A program made the translations under genes and the position numbers. Positions 1 through 16,285 of a stretch of 17,270 nt of DNA are shown here, piece after piece. The first letter of the stretch is position 1, and each line of letters starts with the position of its first letter. Below the pieces are notes generated by a model. The model was not told the DNA's origin, made no database searches, and saw only the letters and a list, made by a program, of their open reading frames with translations. The DNA comes from Planctomycetota bacterium (GTDB lineage Bacteria > Planctomycetota > B15-G4), in assembly GCA_003644265.1 (NCBI GenBank), contig QNBX01000097.1, forward strand, positions 1 through 17,270, written 5' to 3'.

Positions 1-411
1 CACGAGCACGCCGTCGCTGGGCAGGTCCAGCCGCGAGTAGGCCCAGGCGGCCCGCCCCAGGCGCCCCTGCTCGTCGAGCTCACGTCGCACCCAGGCGCGG
101 GCCTGGCCCCGCTCGCCGACGAGTTCGCCGCCCTCGACGGGCGCGGCGGACTCACGCGACAACAGATGCGCGGCGTACACGGCGTCGGGTCGCAACGGTC
201 GCCGGCCGCGGTCATCCACCGCCTCCAGCACCAGCCAGTCGCTGGGAGTCACGGCCTCCGGCAGGCTGGGCGTGGGCCCCAGGCGCCCCGTGGCCAGCAC
301 CCACGGGCCCGCGTCCGGACGGGGAGCGACACGACAGGCCACCGCGCCCAAGCCTGCCACCAGGAGCAGACACAGGAGCGCGGTGCGCGGGACGCCGGAG
401 GTTGGCAGCAT
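1..411 (-). CDS. Putative lipoprotein of unknown function, 5' part only (gene runs off the left edge)
   Basis: An open frame on the minus strand begins with ATG at 411-409 and stays open for 137 codons to the window edge, so the C-terminus is missing. The first 26 residues (MLPTSGVPRTALLCLLLVAGLGAVAC) are reported here only as a description: a short positively charged start, a hydrophobic core LLCLLLVAGLGAVA, then Cys 26. This fits a lipoprotein signal peptide with a loose lipobox (A-V-A-C). The mature part contains DWLVLEAVDDRGRRPL and VYAAHLLSRES and matches no family I recognise. Codons mostly end in G or C, as in neighbouring genes, which supports real coding. No clear Shine-Dalgarno sequence precedes the ATG. 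It is divergent from the FG-GAP gene, with 146 bases between the starts. The location is inferred to be membrane-anchored outside the cytoplasm; the function is unknown. Confidence 0.6.
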   Translation of the reverse strand, partial: MLPTSGVPRTALLCLLLVAGLGAVACRVAPRPDAGPWVLATGRLGPTPSLPEAVTPSDWLVLEAVDDRGRRPLRPDAVYAAHLLSRESAAPVEGGELVGERGQARAWVRRELDEQGRLGRAAWAYSRLDLPSDGVLV

Positions 412-557
412 GGACGGGCTCGCGAGGGGGAGGTCAGCGCGCCATCATGGGCCAGGGCTCAGGCGCCGGACCAGCCTCCACGAACTCAGCCGTAACCCAG
501 CCGCCGCGCTCGGGTTGCAGTCACCGCGCGCACAGCGCTCCCACGGAACCTCACGCC
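412..557. promoter_or_regulatory. Divergent intergenic region between the lipoprotein and FG-GAP genes
   Basis: These 146 bases separate two divergent starts and should hold a promoter for each. I see no convincing -35/-10 pair, no strong inverted repeat and only a weak GGAA (545-548) nine bases before the FG-GAP ATG. The FG-GAP reading frame is open back to an ATG at 402, but that extension is Ser/Arg/Gly-rich without pattern and would bury the signal peptide, so it is treated as noncoding. Confidence 0.35.
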
Positions 558-2301: not shown

Positions 2302-3663
2302 CTACGGCGTCGTGCCCTGCAGTCCGTTGCTGGCCGCGAAGCCCTGGGGCCCGACCGGGTCCGTGATCCAGTGCTGGGCAAAGAAGGACAGGCCGCTCGG
2401 AATCCCGGCGGGCCAGGTGTCCAAGATGACCAGCTCGCCGGCCCCGTCCGTGCTCAAGCCGAACACGACGTCATCGGGCGAGGGCACCAGCACACCGCCC
2501 TTGAAGCCGACCTGCAGCAGCGCGAAGCCGATGACCAGGGCCGTGCTGGCGCCCGGGCGAGCGGCGGACAGGCTCAAGGACACCACGCTCCCGCCCGCCA
2601 GGCTGCCGCCACCCTGTAGCGCGGGCTCGCCCGCCGTCCCCGCGAGGGCGCCGCCCAGATCGCTCCAGGGCGAGGCATCGGCGCGGTAGTCCGTCACCAA
2701 CGGCAGGTGGTCGAAGGCCAGCCCGGCCGAGTCGATGGTGACGTCGTTGGCCAGCAGCCCCGACGCCGAGAGCTGCGCCGGCGACATGCTGGTGGTGTTC
2801 AGCGAGTAGTCGTACACGCTCTGCAACACGCTGTCGGTGGTGATCACGAAGTCGAGCCGACCTGGCGGATACGGGCCGGGCGTGAACCAGGTCCAGTCCG
2901 CCGGACCCACGACGTTGTGCAGGGGCTGGATGTCCAGCGCGTCGCTGCCGTCCCAGTCGGGCGGCGAGTCCGGACCGAACGCCGCCTCGTCGATGATGTC
3001 GCCGTCGATGAGCGTCTGCGCCGGCTGGAAGCTGTCCACGATGTTGAGGTCCCCCAGCACCATCATGGGCGTACCCGCGGGCAGATCGATGAAACCACCG
3101 GCCGTGCGCGCGTCGCGCATCCAGGACACGATGGCGTCGGACTGCTTCTGGCGCCGATGGTCGTTGCCGCCGCAGCACTTGTAGTGGTTGTTCATCACGT
3201 ACAGGTCGACGGGCCAGTCGGCGTCCGGCAGATCCACCAGCGCCATGGCCAGCCCCTTGTCGCCGGCAGGGATGGTGCTCGTCGCCTGCATGGAGAGCGG
3301 CCAGCGGCTGATGATCACGCAGTCGCCCTCCTTGTGCCCATACCAGCCGGCGCCTGCGCCCAGCGGCGCGATGTCGTTGAACAGGCTGATCACGACGCTC
3401 ACGTGGGTGCTGTAGCCGATCTCCTGGATGCACCACACGTCGGCGTCGAGCGCCGCCACCACGCGCACGAACTTGGCGGCCTGCAGCGGATCCTCGTTCG
3501 GGAAGATCGTGTCCCACAGCACGTTGTAGGAGACGACGCGCAGGTCATCCGGATCGAGACGATCCACGAAGGTCTGGCCGGCGGACGCGGGCGCGAGGCA
3601 TAGCGCCAACACCAGCGCAGACAGCAGCAGCGCGAGGGGAGCAGCCTGGGGACGGGACGTCAT
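2302..3663 (-). CDS. Secreted endonuclease/exonuclease/phosphatase (EEP) family protein with planctomycete-type C-terminal domain
   Basis: 453 residues with a signal peptide (LALLLSALVLALCLAPASA, cleavage near 29). The EEP (DNase I-like) catalytic set is complete: Asn47 in SYNVLW, Glu81 in WCIQEIG, His160 in MNNHYK, Asp205 and Asn207 in LGDLNIVD, Asp271 in RLDFVI, and Asp318-His319 in FDHLPLV. Enzymes of this family cleave phosphodiester or phosphomonoester bonds with a divalent metal, in nucleic acids, sphingomyelin or inositol phosphates. The substrate cannot be read from sequence; export suggests extracellular nucleic acid or phospholipid. Residues about 335-453 form a second domain ending FAASNGLQGTTP, which I recognise as a recurrent C-terminal module of secreted planctomycete proteins, probably for sorting or surface attachment (inference). 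No SD is visible before the ATG at 3663. It is divergent from the glycosyltransferase gene. Confidence 0.88.
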   Translation of the reverse strand: MTSRPQAAPLALLLSALVLALCLAPASAGQTFVDRLDPDDLRVVSYNVLWDTIFPNEDPLQAAKFVRVVAALDADVWCIQEIGYSTHVSVVISLFNDIAPLGAGAGWYGHKEGDCVIISRWPLSMQATSTIPAGDKGLAMALVDLPDADWPVDLYVMNNHYKCCGGNDHRRQKQSDAIVSWMRDARTAGGFIDLPAGTPMMVLGDLNIVDSFQPAQTLIDGDIIDEAAFGPDSPPDWDGSDALDIQPLHNVVGPADWTWFTPGPYPPGRLDFVITTDSVLQSVYDYSLNTTSMSPAQLSASGLLANDVTIDSAGLAFDHLPLVTDYRADASPWSDLGGALAGTAGEPALQGGGSLAGGSVVSLSLSAARPGASTALVIGFALLQVGFKGGVLVPSPDDVVFGLSTDGAGELVILDTWPAGIPSGLSFFAQHWITDPVGPQGFAASNGLQGTTP

Positions 3664-3785
3664 GATCAGCAGCCAAGCGAGGGGGCGCGGGGCGCCCGCG
3701 GGCGACGGGCGCAGGCTGAGCGTACCAGCAGATCCGCAACGCCGCCCGCGGGCCGGGAGCGACCGAGGACGCAGGAGCGCTTGCT
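3664..3785. promoter_or_regulatory. Divergent promoter region with a repeated GC palindrome
   Basis: These 122 bases lie between the divergent EEP and glycosyltransferase starts and should contain the promoter of the eight-gene operon. The 11-mer CGCCCGCGGGC occurs at 3693-3703 and again at 3743-3753, exactly 50 bases apart. Its inner ten bases, GCCCGCGGGC, are a perfect palindrome, so a paired operator is possible. TTGCTATGCT (3781-3790) resembles an extended -10 element, but it overlaps the chosen ATG, and using it would force translation to begin at the ATG at 3807. No good -35 was found. Confidence 0.3.
3773..3777 (+). promoter_or_regulatory. Ribosome binding site deciding the glycosyltransferase start
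   Basis: AGGAG lies eight bases before the ATG at 3786. The other in-frame ATGs, at 3807 and 3954, have no comparable site, so 3786 is preferred. Confidence 0.55.
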
Positions 3786-4853
3786 ATGCTCACGAAAGCG
3801 GGCGGCATGAGCCCAGGCGACACAGCAGAGCGCGAGGCGAGGGGTCCAGTGCAGCTTCCGACGGTCGAGGACGACCCGGCGCTCGCCCGCTCGGCACCCG
3901 ACGCGCGGGAATCCACGGCCGCGACCGCCAGCGCCACGGCCTCGGGCGCGCTCATGACGGCCATCGTGCCCGCCTACAACGAAGCCGAGACCATCGGCGC
4001 GGTGATCTCCGGTCTGCTCGCGCTCGACCTGCCCCTGCGCGTGCTTGTGGTGGATGACGGATCGCGCGACGGCACGGCCGCGGTGGCGCTGGCGGCGGGC
4101 GCCGAAGTGCTCCACCACATCGCCCGGCGTGGCAACGGCGCCGCGATCAAGTCCGGGCTGGCCAGCCTGGGTCAGGGCCTCGCCGCCGACCGCCAGCTGG
4201 TGGCGCTGCTCGATGGCGACGGCCAGCACGACCCCGCGCAGCTGCCTGCTCTGTGGGCCCTGCTGCACGACGGCGCGGACCTCGCCGTGGCAGCGCGGAC
4301 CTCGTTCGCAGGATCGGGCTGGGCACGCGACGCGGGCAACCGCCTGCTGTGCGCCCTGGCCGCGTTCATGACGCGCCAGCCCGTGCCCGACCTGACCAGC
4401 GGCTTCCGCGTCTTCCGGTTGGGAGACATGCGGCCCTGGATCCCGCTGCTACCCCAGGGCTTCTCCACACCCACCACCTCGACGCTGGCGTTCCTGCACA
4501 GCGGACGGCGGGTGGCGTTCCTGGACGTCCCGGCCCGGCCCCGCGCCGGTGGAGGACGCACGCGCACGCGCCTGCTGCGCGACGGTCCCTGGTTCTGCGC
4601 CATCGCCATCAAGATCACGACGCTGTTCGACCCCGGCCGGGCGCTGACGCCGCTGACGCTGGGCCTGGGATCCGGCCTGGCAGTCGGCCTCGCGCTGGGA
4701 GCCACGCTCGCCGGGGGCGCGCTGCTGCTGGGGCTTGGGCTGGTGCTCGGCCCAACGCTGGCCCTGGCGCGCGGCTGCACGATCCAACGCAGCGGACTGC
4801 GCAGACCGGCGAAAACAGCGCCCCATCCCGCAGCGCTCGGATCAGGCCCCTGA
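3786..4853 (+). CDS. Glycosyltransferase family 2 (DPM1/dolichol-phosphate-mannose-synthase-like)
   Basis: 355 residues. After about 55 disordered residues comes a GT-A fold: IVPAYNEAETI (60-70), VVDDGSRDGT (88-97, nucleotide binding), ALLDGDGQHDP (140-150, metal-binding acidic motif) and SGFRVFR (205-211). This order is typical of the DPM1-like branch of GT2, which moves a sugar from a nucleotide sugar to polyprenyl phosphate or a similar lipid at the cytoplasmic face. A hydrophobic Leu/Gly/Ala stretch (about 288-328) could form one or two membrane helices. A basic tail follows. The gene is first in a run of eight plus-strand genes, 24 bases before the sulfatase-fold gene. The donor and acceptor are unknown; a role in making a lipid-linked sugar for the flippase downstream is inferred. 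Confidence 0.85.
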   Translation: MLTKAGGMSPGDTAEREARGPVQLPTVEDDPALARSAPDARESTAATASATASGALMTAIVPAYNEAETIGAVISGLLALDLPLRVLVVDDGSRDGTAAVALAAGAEVLHHIARRGNGAAIKSGLASLGQGLAADRQLVALLDGDGQHDPAQLPALWALLHDGADLAVAARTSFAGSGWARDAGNRLLCALAAFMTRQPVPDLTSGFRVFRLGDMRPWIPLLPQGFSTPTTSTLAFLHSGRRVAFLDVPARPRAGGGRTRTRLLRDGPWFCAIAIKITTLFDPGRALTPLTLGLGSGLAVGLALGATLAGGALLLGLGLVLGPTLALARGCTIQRSGLRRPAKTAPHPAALGSGP

Positions 4854-4877
4854 GGAGCGCAGCGAGCAGACTGCAAG

Positions 4878-7478
4878 ATGCGTGATCATCTCCGGCCTGC
4901 GGCCGCCGCACACACCCGCTCAGAGAAGCTCACCCGCGTGAATCGACCGTCGCCCCTTCGACTCCGACGCGCCGCCCTGCTGGGCGCGAGCCTGGGTGCG
5001 GTCTCGTTCGCCGCGCTCATGCTGCTGCAGGCGCTCGCGGCCCGGCTGGCCGGCATGGCCTGGACGATCGACTCCCCGCTGCTCAACCTGTGGCTCTATC
5101 CGACGCTTGGAGCCGCGCTCGGCGGCGTGGCCGCGCCGCTGCTGGAGCTGATCAGGCGGCTCGCTGCCAGCCGCGTGCACGGGCCGGCCTGGGTCGCCGG
5201 TTGGCTGGCCCTGGCGGCGTACGCGGGCCGGGCTGGGGCCACGGCCACGCTGCGCGCGCACCAGGGGCTGCCCGGCGGTCGCGGTGCGGCGCTCGCCTGG
5301 CAGGCCGCCATCGCCGTGAGCCTGGGGCTGATGCTGGTGTCGCTGCTGCATCGCCGCCAAGTCCGCCGCCAAGTCCGCCGCCAAGCCCAGCGCCCGGACC
5401 AGCGGCTGGGCCCCGTGCTGGTGGATGCCCTGTGCGTCGCGCTGCCCATGCTGTGCGCGGTCTACCTGACGCACCTGCAGTGGCTCGCCATCAAGGAGCG
5501 AGCCCTGCTCAGCGGGCTGCTGGGCTGGCCGACGCTGGCGCTGAATGCCGGGGCGGGCGCCCTGGGCCTGGCCCTGGGCTGGGCGCTGATGGGACCCGCA
5601 GCAGCTGACGCTGCGCGCGCCACAGCGCGCCGATCCGTGGCCGCCGCGGCGTTGCTGATCGGCCTCGGCCTGGGCTTGGCGCAGCAGCGCGCACCCGGTG
5701 GTCCAGCTCGCGCTCCGGCCGCAAACACGCACGAAGCCAACGCCCCCGCTGCCAACGCTCCCGACGCGGCCGCGCCTGTCGATGCCGCGGGCGCAGGTGA
5801 CGCCGGCGTCACGCCCGACCGGCCGGGGAGCAGCCCAAACGTCCTGTTGCTCGTGCTCGACACCCTGCGGCGCGATGCGGTCTCGGCCTACGGCATGGTC
5901 GCCGACACGACGCCGCGCTTCGACGCCCTGGCCTCGCAGGGCGTGCGTTGGGACGACTGCGTCGCCAATGGCTGTTGGACGATCCCCAGCCACGCGTCCC
6001 TGTTCACAGGGGCCGAGGTGTCGCGCCACGGCGCGGGCCACTTCCGTAAGCGGCTGCGGCGCACGCCCGCTGGCCCCGGCACACAGCCCCTGCCCACGGC
6101 GGCCGAGTTGCTCGCGCGCCGCGGCTGGGACACGGCCGCCTTCGTCTGCAACATGAACGTGAGCCGCGCCAACGGCTTCGACCGGGGCTTCGACGAGTAC
6201 CAGGAACTCTGGCGCGCCGGCCAGGGTGACTATGACGTGCTGGCGCCGGCGTTGCGGGCCTGGGCCGGCCTGGGCGTGTTTGACAAGGGCGGCGAGCTGT
6301 GCACGCGCGGGGTGAACGCGTGGCTGGGCGACCACGCCGACAGCGCGCGACCGTGGTTTCTATTCGTGAACCTGATGGAGTCCCACTCGCCCTATCACCA
6401 GGCGCCGGAGCGCTTTGCCCGGGCCTTCCTCGAGCCGCATGAGCCCACGCCCGACGTGCAGGCGCTGATCGATGACACCATGGCGCACGTCTACAACGCC
6501 GGCGTGAGCGATGCCGACGCCGAGCAGCTCTGGCGCGTCTACCTCGGCGGCGTGCGCTACCAGGACTGGCTGCTGGGGCGCATCATCGCGCGCCTCGACG
6601 AGCTGGGCCTGGACCGGAACACGCTCGTCATCGTGACCTCGGATCACGGCGAGAACTTCGGTTGGCAGCAGCTCCTGGGCCATGGACAGGACCTCAACGA
6701 TGACCTGCTGCGCGTGCCCCTGGCCATGCGCGGGCCGGGCCTGGGGAGCGGCCGCGTCGCCCCCTCGCCGGCCAGCCTGGTGGACATCCTGCCCACGCTG
6801 CTGGCCCTCACCGGCAGCCCGCCCCTGCCGAGCAGCGCGGGTCGCGACGGCGTCACGCTCGCCGGCGGCGGCTGGCCCCTGGATGAGCAGCGCGAGCGTG
6901 CGCGCGTGGTGGAGAAGCACCCGACGTTTCTGGAGAGCCTGCAGGAGTACGAGCAGCTGACGTCCGCGCTCAGCGCGCCGGGCGGCGATCGGCGCTGGGC
7001 CTGGGGGCGCGCCGGCATCTATCTGGGAACGCGCAAGCTCGTGCGGCTCGAGCCCGCGCACGACGGATCGGCGCTCAGCGGGCCGGCGCTCGACGAGCTG
7101 ACCGCGCGCGTCACGCAGATCGCGGATCGGTCCGGCACGCCGCCACTGGACGACGGCCGCCGCGCGCTGCACGACCCGGCCGCCCGCGCGGAGCTGGGCG
7201 CGCTGCTGGACGCGCTGCGCGAACGCTGGCCCACGGCGCTCGAGCCGGACCCAGCCGACTTGGCGCCCCTCGACGACGAGGATCTCGCGGCGCTGCGGGC
7301 GCTGGGCTACGTGGGGGCGTCGCGCGACGCGCAGCAGCGGCGGGCGGGCCGCCCCGAGTCCCGCCCCGAGTCCGAGTCCGAGTCCGAGTCCGAGTCCGAG
7401 TCCGAGTCCGAGTCCGAGTCCGACGACGACGACGACGACGACGAGCCCGTCAGCGATGGCGACGGCGCGCGCCGATGA
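4878..7478 (+). CDS. Membrane-anchored sulfatase-fold (alkaline phosphatase superfamily) enzyme with Thr at the nucleophile position
   Basis: 866 residues from ATG 4878. GTG at 4938 (residue 21) is a better-supported start: AGAGAAG at 4922-4928 precedes it by nine bases, and the extra 20 codons have weaker GC3. Residues about 30-266 contain six or seven hydrophobic segments, followed by an Ala/Pro linker (268-312). The sulfatase domain (about 318-680) has NVLLLVLDTLRRD (320-332, metal ligands), WTIPSHASLFTG, and TSDHGENFG with Asp589-His590. At the nucleophile position of C/S-x-P-S-R sulfatases it has Thr368, followed by I-P-S-H. It therefore lacks the formylglycine signature and is probably not a classical sulfatase. 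EptA, MCR and LtaS share this layout (membrane domain, outward-facing catalytic domain, Thr nucleophile) and transfer phospholipid head groups; such a role here is inference. The C-terminus is (ES)9-D7. The stop overlaps the next start as ATGA. Confidence 0.85.
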   Translation: MRDHLRPAAAAHTRSEKLTRVNRPSPLRLRRAALLGASLGAVSFAALMLLQALAARLAGMAWTIDSPLLNLWLYPTLGAALGGVAAPLLELIRRLAASRVHGPAWVAGWLALAAYAGRAGATATLRAHQGLPGGRGAALAWQAAIAVSLGLMLVSLLHRRQVRRQVRRQAQRPDQRLGPVLVDALCVALPMLCAVYLTHLQWLAIKERALLSGLLGWPTLALNAGAGALGLALGWALMGPAAADAARATARRSVAAAALLIGLGLGLAQQRAPGGPARAPAANTHEANAPAANAPDAAAPVDAAGAGDAGVTPDRPGSSPNVLLLVLDTLRRDAVSAYGMVADTTPRFDALASQGVRWDDCVANGCWTIPSHASLFTGAEVSRHGAGHFRKRLRRTPAGPGTQPLPTAAELLARRGWDTAAFVCNMNVSRANGFDRGFDEYQELWRAGQGDYDVLAPALRAWAGLGVFDKGGELCTRGVNAWLGDHADSARPWFLFVNLMESHSPYHQAPERFARAFLEPHEPTPDVQALIDDTMAHVYNAGVSDADAEQLWRVYLGGVRYQDWLLGRIIARLDELGLDRNTLVIVTSDHGENFGWQQLLGHGQDLNDDLLRVPLAMRGPGLGSGRVAPSPASLVDILPTLLALTGSPPLPSSAGRDGVTLAGGGWPLDEQRERARVVEKHPTFLESLQEYEQLTSALSAPGGDRRWAWGRAGIYLGTRKLVRLEPAHDGSALSGPALDELTARVTQIADRSGTPPLDDGRRALHDPAARAELGALLDALRERWPTALEPDPADLAPLDDEDLAALRALGYVGASRDAQQRRAGRPESRPESESESESESESESESESDDDDDDDEPVSDGDGARR
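5352..5385 (+). repeat. 12-base tandem repeat, just under three copies, in a loop of the membrane domain
   Basis: The unit CGCCGCCAAGTC is present at 5352-5363 and 5364-5375, with ten bases of a third copy at 5376-5385. It encodes RRQVRRQVRRQA, a strongly basic loop between two hydrophobic segments of the sulfatase-fold enzyme. Under the positive-inside rule this loop should face the cytoplasm. Confidence 0.8.
7368..7421 (+). repeat. Hexanucleotide tandem repeat GAGTCC x9 encoding (Glu-Ser)9
   Basis: Nine perfect GAGTCC copies are followed by seven GAC codons (7422-7442), giving an (ES)9-D7 acidic tail near the end of the sulfatase-fold protein. A degenerate unit (GAGTCC CGCCCC) just before it suggests expansion from R-P-E-S. 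The six-base unit preserves frame, so copy number can vary without breaking the gene. Confidence 0.92.
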
Positions 7479-9001
7479 GCGTCGGCGGCCAGCGAGCGGA
7501 GGTGGTGCGCGGCGGGCTGCTGCTCATGCTCGCCAAGCTGGTGCACACCATCGCGGGCTTCGGGCTGTTCTTCTTCCTGTCCGCCATCCTGGACTGGTCC
7601 ATGGGCGGCGCCGGCATCGCGGCCTTCGGCATCTACGGCACGGCGCTGGTGGTCATCAACCCGCTCAACATGATGTTTGCCCAGGGCACACTGCAGCTCG
7701 TGAGCCAGATGGTCGCCAGCCACCCGGACGATCCCGGCGGCGTGTTCCGCGCCTGCGCACGCATGCAGCTGCCGTTGGTGCTGGCGTTCGTGGTGCTGTT
7801 CCAGCTGGCCGTGCCCGCCATCGCGCGGCACGGGCTGAACGACCCGGCCTACGAGACGATCCTGCGCGTGGGCGGCGCCATCCCGATCTTCTACGCCCTG
7901 CGCTGTCTCTACCAGGGCTACTGCAACGGCACGCGGCGCTTCCGCGAGCAGTCGTGGATCGACATGGGTAGCTCGATCCTGCGCATGGCTCTGGTGCTCA
8001 CGGGCGCGGCCCTGGGTTACGGCGCGCTGGGCGCGCTGCTGGGCTTCGTGGCGGCGTCGTTCGTGATGATGGTGGTGGCCATGCTCTGGATCCGCCCGGC
8101 GCGTGGGGGCGCAACGGCGGCGCTCGACCTGACGCAGCTGCTGCTGTTCCAGGGCAAGGTCCTGGCCGTGACGCTGGTGACCTTCTACCTCATGAGCCTC
8201 GACCAGCTGGCCGTGAAGGCGCTGGCGGACAGCGACCCGGACATCGCCGACCGGCTCGCGGGCTACTACACCGGCAACCTGAAGATCGCGCAGATCCCGT
8301 GGAGCATCATCAGCGCGCTGGTGTGGGTGTTGTTCCCGCTGGTGGCCGCGAGCGCGCAGGACCCGGCGCGGCAACGGGCCACCCTGCGCCAGGGCTTCCG
8401 GCTGGTGCTGCTGCTGATGGCGCCGGTGTGTGTGGTGCTTGGCAGCACCGCGCACGAGACCTACGCGCTGGTCTTCCACGGCAACGCCGCGCGGGCGCTG
8501 ACCGAGTTCGGTGACCCGCTCTCGGTGGTGAGCGGTCCGCTGCAGGTGCTCGCGCCGGGCTACTTCGTGTACGGGCTGCTGATCGTGGCCACCATGCTCA
8601 TCACGGCGCAGGGCCGCGCGGGCACCTCGCTGCTGATCATGTCGCTGACGCTCGTGCTGGGGCTGGTGTTCACCCGCAGCCTGGTCGAGAGCCACGGGCC
8701 CGTGGGCGCGGCGGCTGGCAGCGCGGCCGCGTGGACGCTGGGGCTGGTGGCCGCCTCGATCGTGCTGGCGCGACGCTTCGGCGCCTTCGTCCCCGGCGCC
8801 AGCGTGGTGCGCATCGCCCTGGCCTGCGGCGCGCTCTGGCTGGTGTCGATCGCGCTGCCGGGCGAGGGCCTGATGCTGCTCGCCAAGGACAGCTTGCTGG
8901 GCCTGGTCTACCTGGCCGTGATCCTGCTCACGCGCGAGGTGACCCCCGCCGAGATCCGTGAGATCATGCTGGCAGCCCGAGCCGGGCGGGCGGCACAATA
9001 G
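7475..9001 (+). CDS. MOP-superfamily polysaccharide/lipid flippase (Wzx/MviN-like)
   Basis: 508 residues, almost wholly hydrophobic, with about 12-14 predicted membrane helices from GGLLLMLAKLVHTIAGFGLF (13-32) to LLGLVYLAVILL near the end. The pattern fits MOP exporters, which flip lipid-linked oligosaccharides or other amphiphiles across the inner membrane. The N-terminal helix followed by a Gly-rich stretch and a mid-protein LFPLVAASAQDP also fits, but subfamily (Wzx, MATE, MurJ) cannot be fixed by eye. The ATG overlaps the stop of the sulfatase-fold gene as ATGA and has no SD of its own, so translational coupling is likely. Position between a glycosyltransferase/transferase pair and the phosphonate genes suggests the substrate is a lipid-linked glycan or the phosphonolipid itself (inference). 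Confidence 0.82.
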   Translation: MSVGGQRAEVVRGGLLLMLAKLVHTIAGFGLFFFLSAILDWSMGGAGIAAFGIYGTALVVINPLNMMFAQGTLQLVSQMVASHPDDPGGVFRACARMQLPLVLAFVVLFQLAVPAIARHGLNDPAYETILRVGGAIPIFYALRCLYQGYCNGTRRFREQSWIDMGSSILRMALVLTGAALGYGALGALLGFVAASFVMMVVAMLWIRPARGGATAALDLTQLLLFQGKVLAVTLVTFYLMSLDQLAVKALADSDPDIADRLAGYYTGNLKIAQIPWSIISALVWVLFPLVAASAQDPARQRATLRQGFRLVLLLMAPVCVVLGSTAHETYALVFHGNAARALTEFGDPLSVVSGPLQVLAPGYFVYGLLIVATMLITAQGRAGTSLLIMSLTLVLGLVFTRSLVESHGPVGAAAGSAAAWTLGLVAASIVLARRFGAFVPGASVVRIALACGALWLVSIALPGEGLMLLAKDSLLGLVYLAVILLTREVTPAEIREIMLAARAGRAAQ

Positions 9002-9116
9002 GACCATTCGGAGCGCCGGTGCGCCGATCTGTGCGGCTCCGATCGCGGCCGCCGGCCAGCAGCGGGACAGCGGCCGGGCAGGCCCGCCGCGGCTCGACAG
9101 ACGAAGGGCTCCACGC
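9002..9116 (+). other. 115-base gap between flippase and PEP mutase genes, with two GC-rich inverted repeats
   Basis: This is the only sizeable gap in the operon. CGGAGC (9009-9014) pairs with GCTCCG (9036-9041), and CCGGCC (9052-9057) pairs with GGCCGG (9072-9077) across a 14-base loop. Neither is followed by a T run, so they are not typical Rho-independent terminators. CACAAT (8994-8999) is a weak -10 candidate that could give the phosphonate block its own promoter. The function is unproven. Confidence 0.3.
9103..9108 (+). promoter_or_regulatory. Ribosome binding site deciding the PEP mutase start
   Basis: GAAGGG lies eight bases before GTG at 9117. It supports that start over the longer open frame, which extends upstream into the flippase gene to 8958. 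Confidence 0.6.
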
Positions 9117-10790
9117 GTGAACAAGTCCAGCCAGCTTCGAGCGACCCTCTCGGGCGAGCGCCCCGTGCAGGTCATCGGCGCCCACAACGGGCTCGGCGCG
9201 CGCATCGCCGAGGACGCGGGCTTCGACGCGGTCTGGGCCAGCGGCCTCGAGATCTCGACCGCCGCCGGCGTGCCGGACGCCAACATCCTCACCATGACGC
9301 AGCTGCTCGACGCCGCACAGCAGATGCACCACGCCACGCGCCTACCCGTGATCTGCGACTGCGACACGGGCTTCGGCAACAGCAACAACGTCATCCACAT
9401 GGTGAAGCGCTACGAGGCCGCGGGCATCGCCGCGGTGTGCATGGAGGACAAGCTGTTCCCCAAGGTGAACAGCTTCGTCCCCGGGCGGCAGGACCTGGCG
9501 CCCATGGCCGAGTTCGTCGGCAAGCTCATGGCCGCCAAGCACGCCCAGGCCAGCGACGACTTCTTCGTGATCGCGCGGGTCGAGGCGCTGATCGCGGGCT
9601 GGGGTATGCAGGAGGCGCTCAAGCGAGCGGAGGCCTACCGCAAGGCCGGCGCCGACGCGATCCTGATCCACAGCAAGCAGAGGACGCCGGACGAGATCCT
9701 GGCCTTCCTCAAGCAGTGGGATCACCGCTCGCCGGTGGTGGTGGTGCCCACGACCTACCCGCAGCTCACGGCCAGCGAGCTCAAGGCCGCCGGCGCCGAC
9801 ATCGTGATCTACGCCAACCACGGGCTGCGCGCGGGCATCGGCGCCATGCAGCAGACCTTCGCCGAGATCATCGAAGCCGAGGGCGCCATGACCGTCGTCG
9901 ACGAGCTGGCCCCCATGACGGAGGTCTTCAGGCTGCAGGGCATGCTGCGCATGAAGGAGCAGGAGAAGGAGTTCCTGCGCACCGGCGCCAAGCCCGTCAG
10001 GATCCTCGTGCCGGCGGGCGGTGACATCGACCTGCCCGCCGACCTGGCCGAGATCGTCGATGCCGGAGGGCCGCGTGCCCTGCTCGACCTGTACGGCAAG
10101 CCGCTGATCGAACGCCAGATGGACGCATTTGCCCTGGCCGGCGCCCAGGACATCTCGCTGGTGGGTCCCATAGCGCCTGCGCAGGTAACGCTCGGCAACC
10201 TCGGGCTGGTGGACTCACGAGCCGAGTCGCTGTTGGGCACGGTGCACGCGGGCCTGACCGCCAGGCCCTGCCCCGCCGGCGGGGCGGTGATCATCTGCTA
10301 CTCCGACATCCTGTTTGGCGAGCCCGTGGCCCGTCGCATCGTCAACTGCGACGCCGACATCGGCGTGCTGGTCGACCGCTCGTTTTCCGAGAGCGACCGC
10401 GGCCGGACCAAGGCTCTCGACTACGTCTTCACCGACCCGGCGCCGGACGAGTCGGGCCGCGTGCTCGACACCACGCGCAGCTACGCGGTCCAGCACATCG
10501 GCAAGCAGATCGACCCGCGCGAGGCCCACTTCGAGTTCATCGGCATGCTGAGCCTGAGCGAGGTCGGCTACGCCACGGTCATGCAGCGCTACGCGACGTG
10601 GTCACGCGAGCGCGCGGGCCAGCCCTTCGGCAACGCCGCGAGCTTCGAACAGGCGACGCTGACGGACTTCCTGCAGGAGCTGATCGACGCGGGCGAGTCC
10701 GTCGTCGCGCTGGAACAGGACCGCGGCTGGATGGAGATCCACGACTTTGACGACTACAAGGCCGCCATCGCGCAGCTGAGCCGGGAGTAA
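9117..10790 (+). CDS. pepM: Phosphoenolpyruvate mutase fused to a nucleotidyltransferase-like domain
   Basis: 557 residues from GTG 9117, where the PEP-mutase fold begins at once (SSQLRATLSG...QVIGAHNGLGARIAEDAGFDAVW). Residues 1 to about 290 are PEP mutase of the isocitrate-lyase superfamily. The diagnostic EDKLFPKVNS (110-119) matches the EDKxxxxxNS mutase signature, and CDCDTGFGN (80-88) supplies metal-binding Asp residues. The enzyme rearranges PEP to phosphonopyruvate, the entry step of nearly all phosphonate synthesis. Residues about 293-557 look like a second domain of NTP-transferase fold: RILVPAGGDIDLP, YGKPLIERQMDAF, YSDILFGEP (395-403), HFEFIGMLSL and GWMEIHDFDDY (538-547). Its first loop lacks the GxGxR of active nucleotidyltransferases and PKP is replaced, so it may be inactive or altered. 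The next gene starts 4 bases downstream. Confidence 0.94.
   Translation: MNKSSQLRATLSGERPVQVIGAHNGLGARIAEDAGFDAVWASGLEISTAAGVPDANILTMTQLLDAAQQMHHATRLPVICDCDTGFGNSNNVIHMVKRYEAAGIAAVCMEDKLFPKVNSFVPGRQDLAPMAEFVGKLMAAKHAQASDDFFVIARVEALIAGWGMQEALKRAEAYRKAGADAILIHSKQRTPDEILAFLKQWDHRSPVVVVPTTYPQLTASELKAAGADIVIYANHGLRAGIGAMQQTFAEIIEAEGAMTVVDELAPMTEVFRLQGMLRMKEQEKEFLRTGAKPVRILVPAGGDIDLPADLAEIVDAGGPRALLDLYGKPLIERQMDAFALAGAQDISLVGPIAPAQVTLGNLGLVDSRAESLLGTVHAGLTARPCPAGGAVIICYSDILFGEPVARRIVNCDADIGVLVDRSFSESDRGRTKALDYVFTDPAPDESGRVLDTTRSYAVQHIGKQIDPREAHFEFIGMLSLSEVGYATVMQRYATWSRERAGQPFGNAASFEQATLTDFLQELIDAGESVVALEQDRGWMEIHDFDDYKAAIAQLSRE
10783..10787 (+). promoter_or_regulatory. Ribosome binding site of the phosphonopyruvate decarboxylase gene
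   Basis: GGGAG lies inside the last codons of pepM, seven bases before the GTG start at 10795. It identifies this GTG as the start although the gap between the two genes is only four bases. Confidence 0.5.
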
Positions 10791-10794
10791 GGCC

Positions 10795-11952
10795 GTGGCC
10801 ATCGACATCGAGCGTTTCGCGCTGGCCCTGCGAGCACAGGGCGTCGACTTCTTCACGGGCGTACCGTGCAGCTACTTCCAGTCGTTCGTGAGCTACGCCT
10901 CCGCCAGCGACTCGCTGCCCTACACCATCGCGGCCAGTGAGGGCGAGGCCATCGGGATCGCCACAGGCGCCTGGCTGTCCGGCCGCATGGGCGCCGTCTT
11001 GCTGCAGAACTCGGGCCTGGGCAACTGCGTCAACCCGCTCACCAGCCTGTCGGCCACCTTCGAGATCCCGCTGCTGCTGCTGATCAGCCACCGCGGCGAG
11101 CAGGGCGACGACGCTCCCCAGCACGACCTCATGGGCGAGATCACCTACGACCTGCTGGAGGCCATGCGCATCCCGGCCTTCACCCTGGCTGCCGACGACG
11201 ACGGCGCCCAGCGCAGCCTGGAGCAGGCCCTCGGCGAGACGCGCCGCAGCAACCGCCCCGTCGCGCTGGTGGTGCCCAAGGGCCGCTTCGAGCGCTTCAC
11301 GTGCGACCAGCAGCCGCCACACAAGGCGCCCTCGCGCTGCGTGCCCGAGCGGCTGCCCGGCCCCAGCGCGTGTGTGCCCCGCGAGCAGGCCCTGCGCGAG
11401 CTCGACCGCGTGCTCGACGAGCGGGACCTCGTGGTCACCACCACGGGCATGACCTCGCGCGAGCTGTTCACGATCCGCGATCGCCCGGGCAACTTCTACA
11501 TGCTCGGGTCCATGGGCTGCGCGGCGGCCATCGGCCTGGGCCTGACGCGCTGCGCGCCGGACCGCAAGCTGGTGGTGCTCGACGGCGACGGCGCCCTGCT
11601 GATGAAGCTCGGCACGGCGGCGACCATCGGCCACTATCGCCCGCGCGGCCTGCTGCACGTCGTGCTCGACAACGGCACCTACGAGACCACGGGCGGCCAG
11701 CCCACCACGAGCTGCTCGGTGGCCTTCGAACAGATCGCCGCGGGCGCGGGCTACGCGCGCTCGCTGGTGGTCAACAGCCCGTCCGCCCTCGCGCAGGTCG
11801 TGGCCGAGTTCGAGGTCGGGCAGGGCCCGCTGTTCGTGACCCTCGCCATCCGCAGCGGGCACATGCAGGGCGTCGGCCGCGTGGGCCGCAGCCCCCAGCA
11901 GATCCGGGACGACTTCCGTCATGCCGCCAGTGAATCGCTTCGCGTTTCATAA
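10795..11952 (+). CDS. ppd: Phosphonopyruvate decarboxylase (ThDP-dependent)
   Basis: 385 residues, the usual length of the family. It decarboxylates phosphonopyruvate to phosphonoacetaldehyde, the irreversible step that pulls the unfavourable PEP mutase reaction forward. The N-terminal pyrimidine-binding half has FFTGVPCSYF (19-28), Glu49 in AASEGEAIGIATG (likely the ThDP-activating Glu), QNSGLGNCVNPLTSL (71-85) and ISHRGEQGDDAPQH (97-110). The C-terminal half carries the ThDP-magnesium motif from GDG (264-266) to Asn293 (VLDN), then GTYETTGGQPTT. The active-site and spacing features match the Ppd/AepY group rather than acetolactate synthase, and the shorter length agrees. The GTG start has a good SD. 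The end overlaps the dehydrogenase gene by 32 bases, implying cotranslation. Confidence 0.94.
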   Translation: MAIDIERFALALRAQGVDFFTGVPCSYFQSFVSYASASDSLPYTIAASEGEAIGIATGAWLSGRMGAVLLQNSGLGNCVNPLTSLSATFEIPLLLLISHRGEQGDDAPQHDLMGEITYDLLEAMRIPAFTLAADDDGAQRSLEQALGETRRSNRPVALVVPKGRFERFTCDQQPPHKAPSRCVPERLPGPSACVPREQALRELDRVLDERDLVVTTTGMTSRELFTIRDRPGNFYMLGSMGCAAAIGLGLTRCAPDRKLVVLDGDGALLMKLGTAATIGHYRPRGLLHVVLDNGTYETTGGQPTTSCSVAFEQIAAGAGYARSLVVNSPSALAQVVAEFEVGQGPLFVTLAIRSGHMQGVGRVGRSPQQIRDDFRHAASESLRVS

Positions 11953-13069
11953 CCCCGTCGAGGTGCGCTTCGGGCGGGGCGTCAGCGCCGATCTCGGCGC
12001 GTGCCTGCAGCTGCCGGCGCTGCTGGTGCTGGGCCGCGCGACGCTCGAGCGCACGGGCCTGGCCGACTTCGCCGCGCGCACCGAGGGGGTGCACACGCAC
12101 GCGGGCGTCCCGCCCAACCCCACGCCCGACATCATCGACGCCGGCGCCACCCACGCCCGCGAGCTCGGCGTCCGCACCATCGTCGGCGTGGGCGGAGGCT
12201 CGGCCCAGGACGCGGCCAAGTGCATGGCGGTCATGCTCGGACACAGCGAGTCGATCCGCGACCTCCAGGCCCGATGCCGTGCCGGCGAGGCGTTCATCCG
12301 GCGCGTGCGCCTGATCCAGCTGCCGACCACCGCGGGCACCGGCAGCGAGGTCACCCGCTGGGCCTCCGTCTGGGGCGAGAACGGCAGCAAGTCCTCCCTG
12401 GATCACGAGAGCGGCTACGCCGATGTGTGCCTCGTCGATCCGGCCCTGACCGACGGCATGGGCGCCGCGCTCACCGCCACCACCGGGCTCGACGCCATGG
12501 CCCACGCCATGGAGGCGCTCTGGGGCGTGCACCACAATCCCGTCTCGAGCCTGCACGCGCGCGCCGCGCTGGGCCTGGTGTCGCGGCACCTGCTGCCCTG
12601 CGTGCGCGCGGGCGACGCGGGCATCGCCTCCGCGGCAGCCGCCGCGACGCAACGACAGCGCGACGGCATGGCCCTCGCGTCCCTGCACGCCGGCCTGGCC
12701 CTGTCCAACACGCGCAGCGCCGTGGCCCACGCCTTGAGCTACGCGCTCACCGGCGAGCACGGGGTCTGTCATGGCGCCGCCGTGGGCCTGCTGTGCCGCG
12801 GCGCCCTGCCCGTCAACGCGGCCCTGGTGCCGGAGCGCGTGGCGGCCATCACCGACGCGCTGGGCCTGCCCGACGTGCGCGCGGCCCAGGCCTTCATCGA
12901 CGAGGTGTTCGTGGCGGCGGGCCTGCCCACAGACCTGGCCGGACACGGCGTCCCCGCCTCGGCCCTGCCCGCGCTGGTCGACACCGCCTGCGGCGCCGAG
13001 CGTCTGGCCAACAACCCCGGACAACTCCAGCCCGCCGACCTGGCGGCGATCCTGGAGGCCATCGCGTGA
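11921..13069 (+). CDS. phpC: Iron-containing alcohol dehydrogenase, probable phosphonoacetaldehyde reductase (2-hydroxyethylphosphonate forming)
   Basis: 382 residues, a normal length for the type III (Fe-ADH) family. NAD(P) binding is shown by GVGGGSAQDAAK (89-100) and TTAGTGSEVT (136-145). Metal ligands are Asp191 and His195 in GLDAMAHAMEA, His270 in VAHALSY and His284 in GVCHG. Fe-ADHs of the PhpC/FomC group reduce phosphonoacetaldehyde to 2-hydroxyethylphosphonate; TAGTGSEVTRWASVW followed by a KSSL segment resembles that group. Function is supported chiefly by its position directly after ppd and by the lack of any aminotransferase, so the substrate is partly inferred. ATG 11921 is used; GTG 11930 is an in-frame alternative. 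The start lies 32 bases inside ppd, and the stop overlaps the next GTG as GTGA. The symbol follows the functional analogue. Confidence 0.85.
   Translation: MPPVNRFAFHNPVEVRFGRGVSADLGACLQLPALLVLGRATLERTGLADFAARTEGVHTHAGVPPNPTPDIIDAGATHARELGVRTIVGVGGGSAQDAAKCMAVMLGHSESIRDLQARCRAGEAFIRRVRLIQLPTTAGTGSEVTRWASVWGENGSKSSLDHESGYADVCLVDPALTDGMGAALTATTGLDAMAHAMEALWGVHHNPVSSLHARAALGLVSRHLLPCVRAGDAGIASAAAAATQRQRDGMALASLHAGLALSNTRSAVAHALSYALTGEHGVCHGAAVGLLCRGALPVNAALVPERVAAITDALGLPDVRAAQAFIDEVFVAAGLPTDLAGHGVPASALPALVDTACGAERLANNPGQLQPADLAAILEAIA
13054..13058 (+). promoter_or_regulatory. Ribosome binding site deciding the cytidylyltransferase start
   Basis: GGAGG sits seven bases before GTG at 13066 within the last codons of the dehydrogenase gene. 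It supports a start there rather than anywhere in the much longer in-frame open stretch beginning at 12001. Confidence 0.7.
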
Positions 13070-13965
13070 GCGCCGACGCCCGCCGCGACAGCCACCACCC
13101 CACGGGCAGTGGCGTCAGCCGCGCGGTCATCCTGGCGGCCGGCCGCGGCGCGCGCCTGGGAGCGCACACCGATGCGTGCCCCAAACCGCTGCTGAGCCTG
13201 CACAGCTCGGGCCAACCCACGCTCATCGGGCGACAGCTCGAGCAGCTGGAGTCGCGCGGCGTTCGACACGTGACCGTCGCCGTGGGCTACCTCGGTGCCG
13301 TGCTGGCCAAGGAACTGGCCGCGCGACCCGGAGCCCTGACGATCGCCACGGTCGAGAACCGCGACTGGGCGAGCAGCGGCTCGGGTTGCTCCCTGGTCCA
13401 GGCGGCGGACGCGTTTCGGGCGGGCGAGGACGTGCTGCTCACCCACGGCGACATCATCTACGACGACGCCATCCTCGATGCCGTGCTCGCGACGGCGAGC
13501 CGGGCCGGCAGCGCCATCGCCGCTGACCGCAGCTGGCGCGCCGAGACCCACGACGAGGTCCTGGCCTGGACGCGCGACGGCCGCCTCGCCGGCGTGCGCA
13601 AGGGCGCGGCGGATCGCGAGGCCGACCCCTCTGACCGCGTCAGCGCGCGCGACGCTGCTCCCGGCATGGTGTCACAGCTCGCTGGGTCTCCCGGCGCCGG
13701 CGGCCGCGGCACGGGCGAGTTCATCGGCGTGTCCGTGTTCAGCGCCGGCTTCGCCGCGGCCTTCGTCGGCTTCGTCGAGCAGCGCACACGCCACGACCGC
13801 TCGCTCGACTACGAGCAGCCGCTGCTGTCCGAGTTCATCGCGCGATCGGAGCACAGCGCCGCGGTCGCGTTCAGCGACGGCCTCGACTGGCGCAACGTCA
13901 ACTACCCCGAAGACCTGGCATGGGCGCGTGAGCGCTGCGTCGCGGCCCAGGAGCGCGGCGCATGA
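13066..13965 (+). CDS. NTP transferase domain protein, probable phosphonate (2-HEP) cytidylyltransferase
   Basis: 299 residues from GTG 13066. The sugar-nucleotidyltransferase fold is clear: AVILAAGRGARLG (20-32) for triphosphate binding, CPKPLLSL (38-45), VAVGYLG, ENRDWASSGSGCSLVQAAD (97-115), LTHGDIIYDD (125-134) with Asp129 as the likely metal ligand, and GEFIGVSVF later. Proteins of this type make CDP-choline (LicC), CDP-inositol or CMP-phosphonates (PntC). Because it lies between the 2-HEP-forming enzymes and a CDP-alcohol phosphatidyltransferase, the likely reaction is CTP plus 2-HEP to CMP-HEP and pyrophosphate. The motif near 97-115 also resembles inositol-1-phosphate cytidylyltransferases, so an inositol substrate is an alternative, though no inositol-phosphate synthase is nearby. 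It overlaps both neighbours by four bases (GTGA and ATGA). Confidence 0.85.
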   Translation: MSADARRDSHHPTGSGVSRAVILAAGRGARLGAHTDACPKPLLSLHSSGQPTLIGRQLEQLESRGVRHVTVAVGYLGAVLAKELAARPGALTIATVENRDWASSGSGCSLVQAADAFRAGEDVLLTHGDIIYDDAILDAVLATASRAGSAIAADRSWRAETHDEVLAWTRDGRLAGVRKGAADREADPSDRVSARDAAPGMVSQLAGSPGAGGRGTGEFIGVSVFSAGFAAAFVGFVEQRTRHDRSLDYEQPLLSEFIARSEHSAAVAFSDGLDWRNVNYPEDLAWARERCVAAQERGA

Positions 13966-14732
13966 GCGGGCACCCGCCGACGCAGACCACCGACGGCCTG
14001 TTCGCCAGGGCGCGAGAGATCCTGCGCCAGTCCCACAAGCCGGACGACTTCCTGTGGGCGCGCTGGGTCTCGCGCCCGTTCGCGGCGCTGGCCCTGGCCG
14101 CCCTGCGGCGCGTCCCCATGACGCCCAACGCCATCAGCCTGGTGAGCCTGGGCGTCGGTCTGCTCTCGGCGCTGGCCTACGGCTTCTGGCCGGGCTGGAC
14201 CGGACTGTGGATCGCCTGGAGCGTCGGACAGCTGGCCTACATCATCGACTGCATGGACGGCATGCAGGCCCGGGCGCGGGGCCTGCACTCGCCCGCGGGC
14301 ACGGCCATGGACTTCCTGGTGGACGCCATCAAGCAGATGCTGCTGTTCCCCGCCATCGCGTACCGCGTCTGGGTCGAGGCCGGTCAGCCGCTCGGGCTGG
14401 TGCAGGGCTGGGCCCTGTGGGCCGCCATTCTCAGCGGCCCCATCGTCGCCGCAGGCCTGGCCCTGACCGTGTTCCTGCGCAGCGGCGAGGTGACGGGCGA
14501 GGTGCAGCGCCAACAGCGCGCGGACCACGACAGCACGCCGGCAGGTCGCGTCATGGCCGGCTTCGCGTTCCTGATGAACTACCCGAGCTGGATCCTTGTG
14601 CCGGTGATCTTCCAGCGCATGGACCTCTTCCTGATCATCTCGCTGCCGCTCTACGCCGCGTACTGCGCCCACGCGCTGCGGCTGGTGTGGAAGCGGGTCT
14701 GCGGATTCGACCACTACGCCGGACGGGACTGA
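13962..14732 (+). CDS. CDP-alcohol phosphatidyltransferase family protein, probable phosphonolipid synthase
   Basis: 256 residues with about six hydrophobic segments. The full family signature D..DG..AR(8)G(3)D(3)D is present: Asp96, Asp99-Gly100, Ala103-Arg104, Gly113, Asp117 and Asp121 (IDCMDGMQARARG then GTAMDFLVD). Such integral membrane enzymes transfer a phosphoalcohol from a CMP-activated donor to an alcohol such as diacylglycerol, or the reverse. Here the expected donor is CMP-2-HEP and the acceptor a lipid alcohol, giving a phosphonolipid (inference). The N-terminal segment KPDDFLWARWVSRPFA then MTPNAIS resembles members that use soluble alcohols, such as di-myo-inositol-phosphate synthases, which leaves the acceptor open. 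AGGAG at 13949-13953 is eight bases before the ATG, and the start overlaps the cytidylyltransferase stop as ATGA. It is the last gene of the operon. Confidence 0.9.
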   Translation: MSGHPPTQTTDGLFARAREILRQSHKPDDFLWARWVSRPFAALALAALRRVPMTPNAISLVSLGVGLLSALAYGFWPGWTGLWIAWSVGQLAYIIDCMDGMQARARGLHSPAGTAMDFLVDAIKQMLLFPAIAYRVWVEAGQPLGLVQGWALWAAILSGPIVAAGLALTVFLRSGEVTGEVQRQQRADHDSTPAGRVMAGFAFLMNYPSWILVPVIFQRMDLFLIISLPLYAAYCAHALRLVWKRVCGFDHYAGRD

Positions 14733-14815: not shown

Positions 14816-16281
14816 TCAAGCCTGGCCTGCTTCGAGCCGCGCGCGCCACAGCGCCGCCTGCGCGCGCACGTTCTGCAGGCACGCGCCGCCCACCGAACTG
14901 CGCGCATTGAGCGCGGCCTCCACTGAGAGCGCCGCGCGCACGCCCGGTCCCAGGGCCGGATCGCAGGCGCGCAGCTCCGCGTCGCTGAGCTCGGCCAGCC
15001 CCACGCCGCGGGCATCGGCGGCGCGCACCAGCGCTCCCACCGCGCCGTGGGCCTGCCGGAAGGGGACACCCTGGCGCACGAGCCAGTCGGCGGCCTCGGT
15101 GGCCAGCAGGTGCCCGCCCGCCTCGTCCACCGCGGCGCGCATGGCGTCCCGGTCGAAGGCGATGTCGCGCAGCATGGCCTCGGCCACGGCGAGCATCTGA
15201 CCGAGCTGATCCTCGGCGTCGAACAGGGCCGGCTTATCCTCCTGCAGGTCCTTGAAGTAGCCCATCGGCAGACCGCGCTGCAGCTCCAGCAGGGTGGCGT
15301 GGGCGGAGGCCACCCGCACGGCCTTGCCGCGCAGCAGCTCGGCGCCGTCCGGGTTGCGCTTCTGCGGCATGATCGAGCTGCCGGTGCTGACCGCGTCTCC
15401 CAGTCGCGCGAAGCCGAACTCGCGGCTGCACCAGAGCACCAGCTCGCCGCCCAGGCGCGAGAGCGTCACCGCCGTGCCGGCCAGGGCCGCCGCGAAGCGC
15501 GTGGCGTGCTGGCGTGAGGCCACCGCCGCCAGGCTGTTGGGCTCGGGTGCCGCGAAGCCCAGTTCGCTGGCGGTGAGCTGCGCGTCGATGGGAAAGCCCG
15601 TGCCGGTGCCGGCTCCCGCGCCAAGCGGGCAGCGCTGGGGCGCGCAGTCCAGGGCGTCGGCGTCCAGCGCCAGCATCTCCACGTAGGCCAGCAGGGTGTG
15701 GCCCAGGTGCACGGGCTGGGCCCGCTGCAGGTGCGTGTAGTAGGGCAGCACGGCCTCGCCGTCGCGCGCCACCAGCTCCAGCAGCGCTCGCTGGACCCGG
15801 GCCACGCCGGCGCGCGCCTCTTGCACGGCGCCGCGCAGGTGCAGCGCCAGGTCAGTGGCCACCTGATCGTTGCGGCTGCGCGCGGTGTGCAGGCGCCGGC
15901 CGTCCTCTCCGATCAGCTCGGTCAGCCGCCGCTCCACGGCCATGTGCACGTCCTCGTCGGCGGGCTGCGGGACAAAGCTGCCCTGCTCCAGCTCGCGCTG
16001 CACCTGATCGAGCCCGGCCAGGATCGCGCTCACGCTAGCCCTGGGCAGGATGCCCGTGGCGCCCAGCATGCGCGCGTGGGCGCGGCTGCCGGCCAGGTCC
16101 TCGCGCCAGAGGCGCAGGTCGAATTCGAGGCTGCGGTTGATGGCGTGCAGCGCCGGGTGCACCCCGCCGGCGAAGCGCCCGCGCAGCAGGCCGGCGCCGG
16201 CGCCGGCGCCGAGCGTGGCGGCGGCGGGGGCCGCGGCGGGAGCGACGGCATCGAGCTTTACGTGCTCGGGATCAGGTGCGG

Positions 16282-16285
<4 letters not shown>
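14816..16285 (-). CDS. argH: Argininosuccinate lyase
   Basis: 489 residues. It splits argininosuccinate into arginine and fumarate, the last step of arginine synthesis, as a cytosolic homotetramer. The family landmarks are in order: [20 protein letters not shown] (33-52), [12 protein letters not shown] (134-145), [13 protein letters not shown] (184-196), [12 protein letters not shown] (302-313, the fumarase/lyase signature with the catalytic Ser loop) and [16 protein letters not shown]. ArgH is usually about 460 residues; the excess is an Ala/Gly-rich N-terminal extension of about 30 residues, part of it encoded by a GC-only hexanucleotide repeat. ATG 16285 is chosen because GGAGG (complement of 16293-16297) lies seven bases upstream. 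The open frame continues upstream without meaning. The start overlaps the M20 stop as ATGA. Confidence in function is high. Confidence 0.97.
16191..16210. repeat. GC-only hexanucleotide repeat (CCGGCG, about 3.3 copies) in the argH leader
   Basis: The tract consists of three CCGGCG units and two further bases. On the minus strand it encodes alternating Gly-Ala in the nonconserved N-terminal extension of argininosuccinate lyase (about residues 26-32), before the conserved fold begins at residue 33. Confidence 0.7.

Follow-up and report, generated by a model that had tools for sequence, protein, structure and literature searches.

A candidate operon for a hydroxyethyl-type phosphonolipid in a Planctomycetota bacterium

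The general idea of a phosphonolipid cluster that combines phosphoenolpyruvate (PEP) mutase (pepM), a nucleoside triphosphate (NTP) transferase and a CDP-alcohol phosphotransferase has already been published for a lichen Nostoc, whose cluster is proposed to make phosphonate lipids by a scheme adapted from Yu et al., 2013 (PMC5987646). Here we analyze a 17,270-nucleotide stretch of contig QNBX01000097.1 from a Planctomycetota bacterium (assembly GCA_003644265.1), hereafter the window, in which a five-gene cluster (9117..14732) is predicted to encode the hydroxyl-headed counterpart of this predicted amine-type bacterial pathway, with 2-hydroxyethylphosphonate (HEP) as the head group; this counterpart is what is new here. 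The Nostoc cluster, of the 2-aminoethylphosphonate (AEP) type, and the window share pepM, phosphonopyruvate decarboxylase (ppd), NTP transferase and CDP-alcohol phosphotransferase (CDP-APT), but the former includes an AEP aminotransferase, an OG-Fe(II) oxidase and hpnL, whereas the window has an iron-containing alcohol dehydrogenase (Fe-ADH) and no transaminase (PMC5987646).

The Pnt pathway, represented by the PntC enzymes of Treponema denticola and Atopobium rimae, resembles the window in the activation of a phosphonate with cytidine triphosphate (CTP), in the GxGxR..PK motif, and in clusters where one nucleotidyltransferase (NTase) is fused to the mutase and another stands alone (PMC6697681). 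However, the characterized PntCs use AEP and belong to clusters with LicD-like transferases or glycosyltransferases, whereas HEP and a CDP-APT are predicted for the window (PMC6697681). In fosfomycin synthesis, Fom1 forms the cytidine monophosphate (CMP) conjugate CMP-HEP with a cytidylyltransferase that is likewise joined to PEP mutase, but that domain is N-terminal and belongs to PF01467, and the product is an antibiotic rather than a lipid (PMC6697681). A non-AEP head group is also predicted for a phosphonolipid proposed in Burkholderia, although this is a different phosphonate, 2-hydroxyphosphonoacetate, reached via phosphonoacetate and TauD-type dioxygenases (PMC12723261). In Archaeoglobus, IPCT-DIPPS resembles the window in uniting a cytidylyltransferase and a CDP-alcohol phosphotransferase, but its substrates are inositol phosphates; for AF2299, from the same source, no substrate is named. 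HEP itself is known both from antibiotic synthesis, as an intermediate, and from glycans, to which it is esterified. In the titles, abstract openings and passages of the literature searched, which largely excluded subscription journals, neither a HEP lipid nor a set of genes for making it was seen, and no full text joined hydroxyethylphosphonate, phosphatidyltransferase and lipid; a HEP-type example in Yu et al., 2013 is possible. Passages of PMC8931226, PMC9381506, PMC12723261 and PMC9666466 do not describe this gene set; the full texts that mention both CDP-alcohol phosphatidyltransferase and phosphonopyruvate decarboxylase were two, the Nostoc paper and one on Pantoea (PMC9933511).

All five open reading frames (ORFs) are on the forward strand, spaced by +4, −32, −4, and −4 bases, the order and spacing given in the first-pass annotation of this DNA, which had read them as a complete route to a HEP-headed lipid. 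A scan for promoters and terminators returned no promoter-like site, and one terminator-like site vs. 1.6 expected. By the proposed pathway, PEP would be converted to phosphonopyruvate by the mutase, and phosphonopyruvate to phosphonoacetaldehyde by the decarboxylase; Fe-ADH would reduce the aldehyde to HEP; a separate PntC-like enzyme would combine HEP with CTP to give CMP-HEP; and a membrane lipid, diacylglycerol or the like, would use its hydroxyl to displace CMP in the reaction catalyzed by CDP-APT, yielding lipid-O-P(O)(O-)-CH2CH2OH. We regard the cluster as a hydroxyethyl-type phosphonolipid operon with a HEP lipid as its main product, with moderate confidence.

The first two steps are predicted from family models that score above their curated cutoffs. 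The mutase (9117..10790, 557 residues) has the expected EDKxxxxxNS motif, as EDKLFPKVNS, and matches TIGR02320 (326.4 bits; cutoff 319.55); the single-chain phosphonopyruvate decarboxylase (10795..11952) matches TIGR03297 (380.2 bits; cutoff 312.5). These equivalog-level NCBIfam matches agree with the C–P bond formation and decarboxylation proposed at first pass, and the other three assignments hold at the level of protein family: Fe-ADH (11921..13069; PF00465, PF25137), the separate NTP transferase (13066..13965; broad family NTP_transf_3), and CDP-APT (13962..14732; broad family CDP-OH_P_transf). Fe-ADH is predicted to be a phosphonoacetaldehyde reductase. Its closest NCBIfam model is TIGR03405 (phosphonate-associated Fe-ADH, PsrA), at 205.6 bits and below the cutoff of 423.7, and three of the 120 Fe-ADH matches listed (P0176, P0200, and P0228) are annotated as phosphonoacetaldehyde reductase at source. 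Asp191, His195, His270, and His284, the metal ligands of the family, do not vary across 28 aligned rows, the window's among them. No window ORF matched an AEP transaminase profile, and Fe-ADH stands where amine-type clusters have their transaminase, in keeping with the reduction step as annotated; production of HEP is very likely.

This correspondence emerged from a survey of 392 Planctomycetota genomes, in which the mutase was matched at E ≤ 1e-60 and the stretches around every matching locus were read. A mutase match was present in 33 genomes. Fused mutase, ppd, transaminase, separate NTase and CDP-APT occur together in 11 of the 33 mutase loci; five have the full amine set minus CDP-APT, one has ppd, NTase and CDP-APT without transaminase, one has ppd and CDP-APT only, and the remaining 15 hold less, several ending at a contig edge. 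Of the 13 mutase loci with CDP-APT, 12 also hold the separate NTase within the stretch. The CDP-APTs of 10 of the 11 amine loci pass the PF01066 cutoff; that of L159, a fragment at a contig end, does not, and was recognized by our own profile alone. The transaminases are PhnW-like: TIGR03301 is passed in two of eight scanned and is the best model for the other six. Three further loci (L116–L118) encode ppd, transaminase, NTase and CDP-APT but lack a mutase within the stretch. L116 has its transaminase and NTase in a single protein, and CDP-APT comes directly after it, which links CDP-APT to a donor of the CMP-phosphonate type. Transcription of all genes together is not the rule, since CDP-APT is opposite in strand to the mutase in nine of the 11 full amine loci, converging on NTase in eight and, in L177, co-directional with NTase while the mutase is turned. 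The window follows this amine-cluster plan, except that a reductase replaces the transaminase. The amine-type sister clusters did not figure in the first-pass annotation. Of the 33 mutase loci, one has an Fe-ADH, and at a distance. That locus (L175/L182) was rejected as the same cluster: its mutase is stand-alone, Fe-ADH is on the opposite strand at a distance of ~8.6 kb, and neither NTase nor CDP-APT was found in the 20 kb read of the 26.6-kb contig.

Linkage of the genes among relatives was judged by identical sizes of the longest contigs listed for them, although equal size is not proof of the same contig. The comparison covered 23 rows for CDP-APT, 119 for Fe-ADH and 119 for the fused mutase, the last two being among the matches listed, so that misses are uninformative; chance expectation was obtained by jittering the Fe-ADH values by up to 10% in 2000 trials. 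Relatives of Fe-ADH and CDP-APT have at least eight contig sizes in common (mean expected 0.12, maximum 2), those of Fe-ADH and the fused mutase at least nine (mean expected 0.69, maximum 5), and those of CDP-APT and mutase at least five. All three share at least four sizes, 58945, 353252, 39107, and 22513 bases; the 353,252-base contig is labeled Planctomycetes bacterium, and one of 30,176 bases, shared by relatives of Fe-ADH and CDP-APT, is labeled Myxococcota. Because relatives share contigs by this measure, and because the parallel amine-type cluster recurs in planctomycetes, the gene set is real and conserved, not a product of chance.

The separate NTase, which lies immediately 5′ of CDP-APT as annotated at first pass, is a predicted CMP-HEP-forming cytidylyltransferase and matches T. 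denticola PntC (PDB 6pd1, E = 3e-7). The PntC motif GXG(T/S)RX4-8PK appears as GRGAR-X8-PK, with both Arg and Lys present and Ala at the T/S place. Glu104 and Glu196 of T. denticola PntC lie close to the amine of AEP, and both positions are Asp in LicC (PMC6697681). The Glu104 position is acidic in all 19 transaminase-linked NTases read (Asp in 18, Glu in one); in the window enzyme, the sole Fe-ADH-linked NTase read, it is His127, without the acidic amine contact, and in printed alignments of the archaeal IPCT, the substrate of which has no amine, it is Met. Replacement of the acidic residue by His is expected if the substrate carries no amine. Two features lend this assignment no support: the second acidic amine contact, Glu196, is retained as Glu250, and PntC E220/D222, taken as the second metal site, correspond to Asn277/Asn279. 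Activity would still be possible with these residues because GlmU uses Asn at that place. Enzyme family, gene replacement and the active-site residue together point to HEP formation and to CMP-HEP as the best-supported intermediate, which we consider likely.

The cluster contains two NTase domains, one separate and one fused to the mutase. The first-pass annotation correctly identified the mutase (residues ~1–290) but overlooked the C-terminal NTP_transf_3 match (residues 317–415, E = 6e-7), part of a degenerate MobA-like domain (residues ~291–557; 9987–10790; PF12804). Such fusions are widespread: PF12804 is among the precomputed domains of 108 of 120 mutase relatives among the matches listed, the window's own included, and 33% of mutases are fused to it in the survey of Rice et al. 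(PMC6697681). As a candidate HEP activator, the fused domain was put aside because the catalytic Arg of the PntC motif (Arg15) is kept in none of 29 fused domains, the window included, at a site with indels; the Lys25 position is Lys in 23 of the 29 and Arg in the window, again in an alignment with indels there. D397 and E540, possible metal ligands, are the same in all 60 rows aligned out of the 120 matches listed, and in a fold comparison of the fusion the matches were taken up by the mutase barrel. The fused domain is probably not the HEP activator, and may have an accessory or non-canonical role.

The CDP-APT, a helical membrane enzyme, has the DxxDGxxAR(x8)GxxxDxxxD motif, whose Asp, Gly and Arg residues are conserved in all 23 aligned rows and whose Ala is kept in at least 90%. 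A fold match to the family was confirmed, the closest folds, at 16–18% identity, being AF2299 and, second-best, the DIPPS of the Archaeoglobus IPCT-DIPPS. From this enzyme family, a lipid alcohol would be the acceptor, and HEP transfer to it appears to be the best-supported end step. The fold is nearer to phosphatidylinositol (PI)-phosphate synthase than to cholinephosphotransferase, and the top NCBIfam models are archaetidylinositol-phosphate and PI-phosphate synthases (34 and 31 bits), which would suit a PgsA- or PI-phosphate-synthase-like enzyme that joins the hydroxyl of HEP to CDP-diacylglycerol, giving phosphatidyl-HEP with a terminal phosphonate and leaving the NTase some other function. 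HEP, like glycerol-3-phosphate or inositol phosphate, does bear a hydroxyl and a phosphorus acid. However, both models are far under their cutoffs (180 and 170), the PDB sequence matches at E ≤ 1 are cholinephosphotransferases, AF2299 and DIPPS with no PgsA or PI-phosphate synthase, and the cytidylyltransferase, which directly precedes CDP-APT in the window and recurs in the mutase loci surveyed, would be needless for an enzyme using CDP-diacylglycerol; we consider HEP as acceptor rather improbable. The similarity to DIPPS, together with weak matches of NTase and CDP-APT to NF041135 (IPCT-DIPPS; 37.2 and 25.7 bits, cutoff 580), could alternatively reflect a di-inositol-phosphate-type route in which inositol phosphate is the substrate of both enzymes and the phosphonate genes are adjacent but unrelated. 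This is very improbable: the NTase frame overlaps that of Fe-ADH, relatives of Fe-ADH, mutase and CDP-APT are on contigs of equal size, and there is no inositol-phosphate synthase among the family matches of 12 window ORFs.

Relatives of the CDP-APT include 22 at 42–70% identity and one at 32%. In the 392 Planctomycetota genomes its profile gave a best match of E = 2e-37 (28% identity), and an alignment-based scan of a contig collection gave a best identity of 37% (80 of 400 related stretches kept); mutase, decarboxylase and Fe-ADH had no tblastn match at 1e-8 in those 80 loci, some of them short. No relative was found in a scan of viral contigs. Varied CDP-APT arrangements were seen in planctomycetes. 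In L151, where a fused mutase and ppd were found but no transaminase and no Fe-ADH, a 396-residue CDP-APT with a long N-terminal extension (3265–4455) is encoded upstream. A 920-residue open frame in L168 (4344–7106, minus strand) combines CDP-APT with an LPG_synthase_TM domain, presumably the family of HpnL; no gene of this type was seen in the window. L113, from a planctomycete with no mutase match, has tandem CDP-APT genes (1174–2686) behind a PntC/IPCT-like NTase (403–1161). In the class of genome G166, 8 of 12 genomes have a CDP-APT matching the window profile, in a different module where read: five of eight fetched loci (L105, L108, L109, L110, and L112) have an NTase-bearing ORF upstream of CDP-APT, which in L108 (6315–10087) is a fusion of a pyruvate-kinase barrel with a MobA-like NTase, and in L105 and L108 Pfam places ATP-sulfurylase and PUA domains between the NTase ORF and CDP-APT. 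This is a putative head-group module, with no mutase on the stretch.

Upstream of the cluster, three genes on the same strand, which the first-pass reading had not taken in, encode a GT2 glycosyltransferase (3786..4853; PF00535), an alkaline-phosphatase/sulfatase-fold protein (4878..7478; PF00884, PF01663), and a flippase-like Polysacc_synt_3 protein (7475..9001; PF13440). Their spacing (a 24-base gap, a 4-base overlap, then 115 bases to the mutase) makes it possible that the flippase gene is in the same transcript as the mutase. Alignment of the phosphatase-fold protein to 4upi places Thr at the usual Cys/Ser nucleophile position. A Thr nucleophile is found in phosphoethanolamine and lipoteichoic acid transferases. 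This protein, the C-terminal tail of which contains Ser-Glu repeats and a run of Asp, may act as a phospho- or phosphonotransferase. The spacing, the Thr, and the HEP esters carried by marine polysaccharides (PMC9381506) would fit a phosphonoglycan pathway that includes all three genes, with HEP ending on a surface polysaccharide and the lipid only a carrier or donor. Against this, a Pfam scan of 12 window ORFs yielded no transferase of the LicD type, and by single-sequence profiles the surveyed loci (numbered from L105, without L121–L150) held no flippase or GT2 relative and a single relative of the phosphatase-fold protein (L181); we regard it as unlikely. For the same scarcity of relatives in other loci, we give a low probability to an eight-gene system (3786–14732) in which the HEP lipid would be made in the cytoplasm, flipped, and then used as HEP donor by a Thr-type transferase that decorates a surface glycan. 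That such a system would be a phosphonate counterpart of the phosphatidylethanolamine/EptA system is a similarly speculative analogy. The other genes beside the cluster encode an FG-GAP-repeat protein (402–2294, forward strand), an endonuclease/exonuclease/phosphatase-family protein (2302–3663, reverse strand), and ArgH (14816–16285, reverse strand). In a search that covered Planctomycetota and no other phylum, ArgH is matched at E ≤ 1e-90 in 175 of 384 genomes, with a best identity of 67%, so that a planctomycete origin of the window is likely. No CDP-APT match at E ≤ 1e-10 was found in the 14 genomes of the class to which the nearest ArgH genome belongs.

If the HEP-lipid reading is right, the cluster would be a compact set of five genes for a phosphonolipid that resists hydrolysis and ends in a neutral hydroxyl group, and would offer a route to assaying the last step of bacterial phosphonolipid synthesis. 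The exchange at the Glu104 position would further suggest, at the level of a single residue, how PntC enzymes might discriminate phosphonates with an amine from those with a hydroxyl.

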